Shown here one piece after another: positions 1-1,816 of a DNA stretch of 64,000 nucleotides (positions are counted from its first letter, which is position 1; each line of letters opens with the position of its first letter). A program made the translations under genes and the position numbers. Source of the stretch: Bacteroidia bacterium (GTDB lineage Bacteria; Bacteroidota; Bacteroidia; B-17B0; Aurantibacillaceae); assembly GCA_020846025.1 (NCBI GenBank), contig JADLER010000122.1, positions 1 to 64,000 of the forward strand. Direction: 5' to 3'. Below the pieces are notes generated by a model. The model had not been told where the DNA came from and searched no databases. It was given only the letters and a program-made list of their open reading frames with translations.

Positions 1-1816
1 CTATAATGATTTGTCTTGTTTTATTGAGAATGTGATGAGGCTCTGTTTCAGTTTCTATGGCTTTTTCTAAGCTGGTGATGTTGAGTAAACTCATAATAGC
101 TCCGGGCACTCCGTGGCCGGTGCTGTCGGCGGTGGCAAGAATAAAGTTCTCGACTGCGCTCGAACTGCTATTGTTCTCGACTTCGCTCGAACTGACAGGT
201 TTAGTAGTTGCGTTTGAACTGGGAGAGGGTGGTGTCACGTCGAGCGGAGTCGAGACGGACAAGTGGTTCTCGACTGCGCTCGAACTGAGAATAGAAGCTG
301 CCCAATAAAAGTCTCCGCTTACTACATCTTTGGGTTTAAAGAATACAAAGTATTCACCTAAATTTTTGTCTAAAATTTCTTTAGTGGCGAGGAAGCTACG
401 TTGGATGCGCTCTGCGTAGTTGATACTGTCAGTTATTTCTTTGTGTTTTTCTTCGATAACGTGTTTTTGCAAAGATGTTTCTTTTTCCTTTTCTTCAATG
501 ATTATTTTTTGCTTTTGCGTTACCCTAAAGCGGTTAAACATAAAAAGACCAAAGAGTGCCACCAATCCCAAACCTACATAAAGAAAAATATTTTGTCTTT
601 TTTGGGCAGCTGTTTTGGTTTTTTCTACTTCTAAATTGGCTAAATGCACTTTTTCCGCTTCTGCGGCTTTGATGCTGTCTGCTACGGCTTTCTTCTCCTG
701 CTCATACCTAAACGCCTGCTGCATGGTAGCTTTGTAGGTTTCTTCGTTTTGCATGCTATCTCGCATAAGTATGTACAGTTCGTGCATTTTTAAGGCTTCT
801 TTGTAGTTGCCCTGCTTTTTATGGATATTATAAAGCAAGTCACTCGCATCTCTTATCCACATTACATGACCAGTTTCTTCCGCCAGAGCTAAGCCTTTGG
901 CAACGTACTGTAAGGCTAAAACGATATGCCTCTGATCGTAATAAATAGTCCCGATGCTGATGTAAGAAATTGCCAAACCAGATTTCAGCCCCAGTTCTTT
1001 ACGGATTTTTAAGGCTTTAAAGAAGTATTCCATAGCAGAGGCATCATCACCCTGTGCGGAATAAATAGCTCCGATGTTGTTGTAAGAAACTGCCATAGAG
1101 GATTTCATGCCCATATCTTCATAGATTTTTAAGGCTTTCAGTTGATATTCCATGGCACGAACATAATCGCCCTGATCGTAATAAACATTCCCTATGTTGT
1201 TGTAAGAATATGTCATATCGGATTTAATCCCCAACTCTTCACGGATTTTTAAGGCTTTCAGATAGTATTCCATAGCAGAGCTATAATCAACCTGATCGTA
1301 ATAAATACCTCCGATGTTGTTGTAAGATATTGCCATATTAGATTTCATACCCAGCTCTTCATAGATTTTTAAGGCTTTCAGGTAGTATTCCATAGCACGG
1401 GCATAATCGCCCTGCTCGTAATAAACCATCCCGATGTTGGCGTAAGAGCCTGCCATATTGGATTTCAGCCCCAGCTCTTCACGGATTTTTAAGGATTTTA
1501 GGTGGTATTCCATGGCGGAGGCAAAATCGTCCTGATAGTAATAAACAATCCCGATGTTGTTGTAAGAAGATGCTATTCCCTTTTTAAAGCCGAGCTTTTC
1601 GGCTAGTGTATGGGCATTTTGGGCGTAGTACAGGGCGGTATCGTAATTTCCCACACGCCAGCCTGCTTTTTCGCTGAGTTGAATGAGGGTGTTTACTTTG
1701 TTGGTGTCTTCTTTGGCGGTTTTGAGTACGGTGAGGAGGGAATCAACTGTGGTGGTTTGGTTAAAAGCCAAAACACCTTTGAACAACAACAAGGCTATGT
1801 AAATTAGTCTTTTCAT
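1..1816 (-). CDS. TPR-repeat membrane protein with PP2C/SpoIIE-type phosphatase domain (3' end outside window)
   Basis: An open frame of 605 codons runs from the ATG at 1816 off the left edge without a stop, so the C-terminus is missing. In order I see a signal peptide (about residues 1-18), tetratricopeptide repeats of exactly 40 residues (about 80-320), a charged coiled-coil region, one membrane segment (408-426), a second coiled coil, then the start of a SpoIIE-like Ser/Thr phosphatase domain. That domain shows SGDFYWA (Asp502) and ADSTGHGVPGA (Asp564), the two metal-binding Asp motifs of the family. The architecture matches Bacteroidota sensor proteins that use periplasmic TPRs and a cytoplasmic phosphatase, probably acting on an anti-sigma antagonist. 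The odd part is residues 507-557: a Ser-rich insert encoded by palindromic DNA repeats sits between the two catalytic motifs, where relatives usually have only a short loop. The ligand and target are unknown. Confidence 0.85.
   Translation of the reverse strand, partial: MKRLIYIALLLFKGVLAFNQTTTVDSLLTVLKTAKEDTNKVNTLIQLSEKAGWRVGNYDTALYYAQNAHTLAEKLGFKKGIASSYNNIGIVYYYQDDFASAMEYHLKSLKIREELGLKSNMAGSYANIGMVYYEQGDYARAMEYYLKALKIYEELGMKSNMAISYNNIGGIYYDQVDYSSAMEYYLKALKIREELGIKSDMTYSYNNIGNVYYDQGDYVRAMEYQLKALKIYEDMGMKSSMAVSYNNIGAIYSAQGDDASAMEYFFKALKIRKELGLKSGLAISYISIGTIYYDQRHIVLALQYVAKGLALAEETGHVMWIRDASDLLYNIHKKQGNYKEALKMHELYILMRDSMQNEETYKATMQQAFRYEQEKKAVADSIKAAEAEKVHLANLEVEKTKTAAQKRQNIFLYVGLGLVALFGLFMFNRFRVTQKQKIIIEEKEKETSLQKHVIEEKHKEITDSINYAERIQRSFLATKEILDKNLGEYFVFFKPKDVVSGDFYWAASILSSSAVENHLSVSTPLDVTPPSPSSNATTKPVSSSEVENNSSSSAVENFILATADSTGHGVPGAIMSLLNITSLEKAIETETEPHHILNKTRQIII
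146..287. repeat. Cluster of four REP-like palindromic repeats inside a coding region
   Basis: Three direct copies of a 22-bp unit lie at 146-167, 173-194 and 266-287; the first and last are identical and the middle one differs by one base. An inverted, more divergent copy lies at about 234-256. Each unit is an imperfect hairpin with CTCGA/TCGA arms around a short GC-rich core. The cluster is much richer in G+C than its surroundings. The three direct copies are spaced by multiples of three and are read in the same frame on the minus strand, giving SSSAVEN or SSSEVEN each time. Repeats of this general look are dispersed between genes in many Bacteroidota genomes; that statement comes from memory and was not checked here. 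Confidence 0.8.
961..1570 (-). repeat. Tandem 120-bp coding repeat (TPR units)
   Basis: A motif around TTGTTGTAAGA recurs at 961, 1081, 1201, 1321, 1441 and 1561, exactly 120 bp apart, with long stretches of near-identity between units. The period equals 40 codons and each unit encodes one TPR helix pair of the form YNNIGxxYYxQGDYxxAMEY followed by LKALKIxEELGxKS. The DNA-level similarity suggests recent unit duplication or gene conversion within the array. Confidence 0.85.

Follow-up and report, generated by a model that had tools for sequence, protein, structure and literature searches.

How could a palindromic DNA repeat come to lie, in frame, between the two metal-binding motifs of a phosphatase domain? 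The question is raised by a gene at one end of the DNA analyzed here (the window, a contig segment of 64,000 nucleotides). Its minus-strand open reading frame (ORF) is open at the contig edge, and the last part of the phosphatase domain lies outside the window. The visible product matches the Pfam families TPR_12 (E = 2e-49) and, over the truncated domain, SpoIIE (PF07228; E = 7e-4), and its metal-site Asp residues are invariant in the alignments. The contig start interrupts the gene, and the draft genome has 6.4% contamination; we therefore consider the product only a putative phosphatase. Its assignment to the SpoIIE/PP2C fold draws on PF07228, on these alignments, and on a Foldseek search with the model of a homologue from genome G223, whose best solved match is the PP2C domain of SiaA (6k4e; TM 0.88 by target length). 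(Labels beginning with G, C, and L are our handles for genomes, contigs, and loci.) The TPR repeats of the gene (932–1576) have a 120-nt period at the DNA level as well (~73–82% identity), a tandem expansion separate from the array discussed below.

A first-pass annotation of this DNA described a 22-bp unit present three times in direct and once in inverted orientation, in frame between Asp502 and Asp564, with the direct copies offset by 27 and 120 bases and each encoding SSSAVEN or SSSEVEN. The coordinates, frame, peptides, and offsets all hold (Table 1), and a fifth, decayed copy that had been missed occupies part of the same loop. Similar decayed units are found in contigs C217 and C95. The inverted copy and copy 3 together constitute an inverted pair, which is present also, along with decayed units, in an intergenic cluster of C217 (L128, 614–820) and in C95. 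The first-pass annotation also pointed to the absence of a stop or frameshift. The frame through the repeats is indeed open, but this is weak evidence because four of the six frames of the unit are free of stop codons in every variant.

Table 1. Positions of the putative phosphatase gene, its metal-site motifs, and the repeat copies within the window.
Feature	Position	Strand	Remarks
TPR-SpoIIE/PP2C phosphatase gene (putative)	2..1816	-	605 aa seen; C-terminal end cut by contig start
GDFYW, first metal-site Asp502 and strand before loop	302..316	-	invariant in alignments
DSTGHG, Asp564, second metal-site motif after loop	110..127	-	Asp invariant
Expanded hairpin loop, residues 508-557, made of repeat units	146..295	-	~132 nt longer than usual loop
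REP copy 1	146..167	+	minus strand reads SSSAVEN
REP copy 2	173..194	+	reads SSSEVEN; 1 mismatch
REP copy 3	266..287	+	reads SSSAVEN
Inverted REP copy	236..256	-	reads STPLDVT; exact 14-nt core at 240-253
Decayed direct copy, same 27-nt register	197..220	+	reads SSNATTKP

Across 112 copies from the window genome and its relatives, the consensus is NN-TCTCGACTNCGCTCGA-NN-TGACA. The TGACA tag (reverse complement TGTCA) is exact in 96 of these copies. The outermost two bases at either end form complementary arms in 104 of the 112; 2000 shuffles averaged 39 such copies and never exceeded 54. Seven types of complementary arm occur (GT/AC, CT/AG, CA/TG, and less common ones). A lone unit is an imperfect palindrome that is predicted to fold weakly (-1.5 kcal/mol, z 0.24), whereas an inverted pair is predicted to form one long hairpin (-25 kcal/mol, z -8.2). 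Inverted pairs are frequent; genome G002 has 15, with cores 30–47 nt apart, an organization like that of REPINs. The tag, the co-variation of the arms, and the strong folding of inverted pairs identify the unit, as judged from its sequence, as a REP/REPIN-type element that carries TGTC in place of the GTAG tag. A variant unit whose loop contains an additional small palindrome was observed in loop 1 (defined below) of a G251 gene (L305) and at L139 of G002.

These features bear on the possibility that the loop is simply a low-complexity, Ser-rich stretch belonging to no repeat family. Loops in this protein family do vary in length, and some long ones are free of repeats, such as one of 46 residues at L070. 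However, exact 14-nt cores are expected zero times by chance, dinucleotide shuffles of the window gave no matches, and the core belongs to a family that is spread through the genome, bears a tag, and has co-varying arms. The exact cores and the tagged family refute this explanation, and we assign it practically no probability.

The closest described relatives are the CGTC/TGTC-tagged REPs, in which TGTC is a stated variant of CGTC and four families are recognized (Di Nocera et al. 2013, PMC3733652). Bacteroidetes are among the five phyla from which CGTC-tagged REPs were reported; no RAYT gene there is flanked by the repeat, and intragenic clusters encode 43–82 residues, and two recB genes carry a repeat at nearly the same position (PMC3733652). 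The elements RPE-4 and RPE-6 of R. conorii were treated alongside these REPs (PMC3733652). The repeat examined herein shares with them the tag, the inverted dimers, a stem preserved by compensating changes, a mostly intergenic location with some copies in frame within genes, and the lack of a flanking RAYT gene. In contrast, their hairpins have a stem of 8–9 bp with AT at positions 1 and 2, a loop of 4–5 nt, and a CCA tail (PMC3733652), whereas our unit has a stem of ~6 bp across a 2-nt bulge, a 6-nt loop, no AT at the first two stem positions, and no CCA tail that we could see; it is also concentrated in the loops of one phosphatase family. Given that the tag, dimers, and intragenic copies are common to both and the stem, loop, and tail are not, the element appears to work like CGTC/TGTC REPs while standing outside their four families.

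Two other systems invite comparison. REPINs with RAYT transposases (PMC3116915) likewise consist of two inverted units around a variable spacer and form a long hairpin, but the window repeat differs from GTAG REP/REPIN-RAYT systems in having neither that tag nor a RAYT gene found to be linked to it. Rickettsia palindromic elements are mobile palindromic DNAs that are tolerated in frame within protein genes (Ogata et al. 2000, via PMC10969869); they are ~150 bp long and occur in many unrelated genes (PMC10969869). The window repeat resembles them in its in-frame insertion into coding genes and is unlike them in its ~25-bp unit, its phylum, and its repeated use of one family, in a comparison made at the level of properties. 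Our literature search found no description of this repeat in Flavobacteriia. RepRanger (PMC12306157) reports high REP counts in Flavobacterium, and we found in it no mention of intragenic copies.

The first-pass annotation had further suggested looking for a REP-associated transposase of the RAYT/Y1 type, and such a link is not supported. Matches to PF01797 (Y1 transposase) are absent from the window genome. Among 20 genomes of the genus, 12 have PF01797 and six match a RAYT profile, but none of the 15 RAYT-like loci in the genus is flanked by the repeat (a single weak match with two mismatches at the end of L215 was not counted), and RAYT number does not correlate with repeat copy number (Spearman 0.16, p 0.51). 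Three repeat-rich genomes, G002, G007, and G008, have no RAYT. What stands of the original insertion reading is a REP-type element spread through the genome and a net in-frame gain at this locus.

The unit is by no means confined to the locus. Its exact core occurs 12 times in the window draft genome, in 18 of the 20 genomes searched of the genus (0–65 copies per genome), and in 48 of 295 genomes across the class; these counts are of the exact core and include decayed copies only in part. A reversed control pattern produced essentially no matches in the same searches. As had been assumed from the usual behavior of such repeats, copies in relatives are mostly intergenic, with 57 of 65 outside ORFs in G002.

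We next consider the loop itself. In the window gene, loop 1 (from GDFYW to GHG) has 69 residues, compared to a median of 25 among 111 relatives lacking the repeat there, so the orthologues do not carry an unrelated loop of equal length. The net gain is thus 44 residues relative to the usual loop, or 40 relative to paralogues with a single copy, rather than the ~50 first proposed. Paralogues on contigs C69 and C3 have a 29-residue loop 1 with one copy, decayed in C3, and C219 carries copies at the same site. Copy 3 of the window adjoins the strand after which all three carry theirs, and the DNA flanking the loop is 88% identical between C3 and the window gene. The best explanation, which we regard as very probably correct, is that the segment consists of a small group of copies of a TGTC-tagged, REP/REPIN-like repeat that entered, in frame, the β-hairpin turn joining the metal-site strands of the SpoIIE/PP2C domain.

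Three sites in this domain accept the repeat. Loop 1 lies at GDFYWAA / F.LATADSTGHG; loop 2 at NPVWIVR / EIIEIKPDKMPVG (NPVWIVR...EIKPDKMPVG), where 53 relatives lack it; and the third is the linker before YFVFFKPKDVVSGD, where 63 relatives lack it. Altogether, 17 phosphatase genes from 10 genomes and at least three genera carry the repeat in loops of the domain, a set widened by hairpin-directed searches that favor such genes by design. The window genome (G000) has 34 SpoIIE domains, a large expansion of TPR/sensor-SpoIIE phosphatases, and some relatives give up to ~80 loop-1 matches.

With the repeat so close to the contig start (within 300 nt), and several repeat loci of this draft genome near contig ends, one might suspect an artefact of assembly or binning. 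Nevertheless, G165 (6 contigs), G223 (99% complete), and other genomes show the same arrangement, the reading frame is uninterrupted, and the flanks match paralogues on both sides. We consider an artefact very improbable. The window contig (C122; window 1–2) and C95 (L129, position 1) start inside complementary halves of a SpoIIE domain, with a gap of ~10 residues by comparison with C3. This coverage is suggestive of one gene with inserts in both loops, but it falls short of proof, and the idea was set aside; a tree places the two halves, which do not overlap, with different paralogues.

Structural models place the inserts in turns and in a pre-strand linker. AlphaFold modeling of a G223 homologue that carries all three inserts (mean pLDDT 89.6) puts the loop-1 insert in the turn between two strands and the third one in the segment leading into a strand, while the long loop-2 insert is predicted to be disordered (pLDDT ~44–64). 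The model of the window fragment, whose confidence is low overall because the domain is truncated, renders the expanded loop as a low-confidence coil between two strands. The simplest reading of these models is that exposed, length-variable turns would accept short, stop-free, hydrophilic insertions. Values of dN/dS in the domain are mostly 0.04–0.15 (dN 0.029 and dS 0.80 for the window gene vs C3); on these estimates the host domain is under purifying selection, with its metal ligands kept.

Were these inserts acquired repeatedly, or did each loop receive one ancestral insertion that then spread solely by gene duplication and descent? The second alternative has points in its favor. C69, C3, three G223 genes, and a G318 gene agree in the junction and the 29-residue length of loop 1, so that part of this sharing probably goes back to an ancestor, and the insert-bearing G223 genes form one clade. 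However, on a tree built from 103 SpoIIE domains, with columns dropped when fewer than half of the rows fill them, the repeat label has to change 12 times, at least six of these changes being forced by well-supported branches, with close relatives lacking inserts lying in between. Separate events are also needed for a distant subfamily (L243) and for frames other than SSSxVEN, such as HLERSRE in L280 and SVRAKSR in L305, and loop 2 has 40 extra residues in C95 and no insert in C3. We therefore find a history of single insertions improbable. Since the paralogues have common ancestors and may pass copies among themselves, any count of independent insertions is uncertain. On either side of the C95 insert, GTGCGAAC and GTACGTAC resemble each other only loosely, too little to represent a target-site duplication, and no clean target duplication was seen.

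As for the growth of the array, Tandem Repeats Finder detects arrays with a 27-nt period in C219 and C217 and no 27-nt array in the window itself, where the register can be seen directly only for copies 1 and 2 and the decayed copy. Since the period occurs in an intergenic array too, it is probably a property of the unit and its 2-nt spacer and not of selection on the frame; that 27 nt equals nine codons would then be happenstance. Repeated insertion into these turns can be pictured as follows. A single loop-1 copy would be ancestral, and growth would have proceeded through duplication of the unit in the 27-nt (9-codon) register and copying of the inverted pair. What may let insertions survive is a unit that is short and lacks stops in four of six frames, together with a Ser/Glu-rich, disordered peptide that would fall in exposed turns whose length already varies. 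The many paralogues would both add to the available sites and, through gene duplication or conversion, pass copies to one another.

One possibility is that these loops are diversified adaptively, with the repeats favored because they alter phosphatase regulation or partner choice, and with selection keeping and refreshing them. Several results are in keeping with this view, beginning with the strong concentration in one family and in three of its loops. When genes with interior copies were sampled by the repeat pattern alone, 11 of 17 proved to be SpoIIE phosphatases, whose share of the genome is estimated at ~2.5% (34 domains in genes of ~2.1 kb). The enrichment (binomial p ~3e-14, or ~2e-7 if close relatives are counted as one), which also counts in favor of the main insertion reading, is approximate, as the copies of G007, G008, and G012 were sampled in part. 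In addition, most exact copies are well inside ORFs in the window genome (8/12) and in G223 (15/19), compared to 3/65 in G002 (Fisher p 3e-6 and 2e-10, respectively). Finally, when the window gene is compared with genes from another genus that have a copy at the same site, third codon positions of the repeat are identical at 8/8 sites, whereas those of the right flank match at 6–7/12 and dS across the domain exceeds 1. This contrast, from few sites, hints at re-insertion or conversion.

Selection for the inserts is nonetheless, in our estimation, unlikely. G002 and G007 are rich in both the repeat and these phosphatases, yet no copies were found in these loops (30 of the 45 G007 copies were sampled), a given loop can hold unrelated peptides read from different frames, and C3 has let its copy decay. 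The word "domesticated," as applied to the repeats at the outset, goes further than the results: the protein tolerates the repeats, while a benefit to the protein is only possible.

The recurrence of one repeat in three loops, in many paralogues and species, alongside sister lineages that are nearly empty, makes tolerance, repeated insertion, and benefit separable from one another; nature has here run, with replicates, an experiment on the making of protein from selfish DNA. We speculate, with considerable reservation, that the mobile REP family and the expanded family of signaling phosphatases are coupled, such that copies repeatedly land in the loops and are exchanged there, and the repeats diversify the paralogues. 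If so, the repeats would be a standing source of in-frame loop variation that is added, expanded, refreshed by conversion, and lost. That mobile palindromes can create protein sequence is an idea already published (PMC10969869, PMC3733652), and palindromes in frame within genes are known. What is new is that a single family of paralogues has had the same loops used again and again. More broadly, REPs with no known transposase keep turning up inside genes in this bacterial group.

Several smaller observations accompany these results. The SpoIIE domain of the C219 paralogue ends directly after its own repeat array (L130, 6060–6190), and no remainder was found farther downstream; the gene may have been truncated there by recombination or deletion. 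In-frame single units were also noticed in unrelated long ORFs that, by resemblance, apparently encode a PurL-like enzyme (L207 1501, in G223) and a proton pyrophosphatase (L023 1472, in C32), and in a possible restriction/helicase-like ORF (L018 1070, in C153). Finally, the variant unit of G251 is itself used in loop 1, where it reads SSS-LPSRQTGG-VEN.
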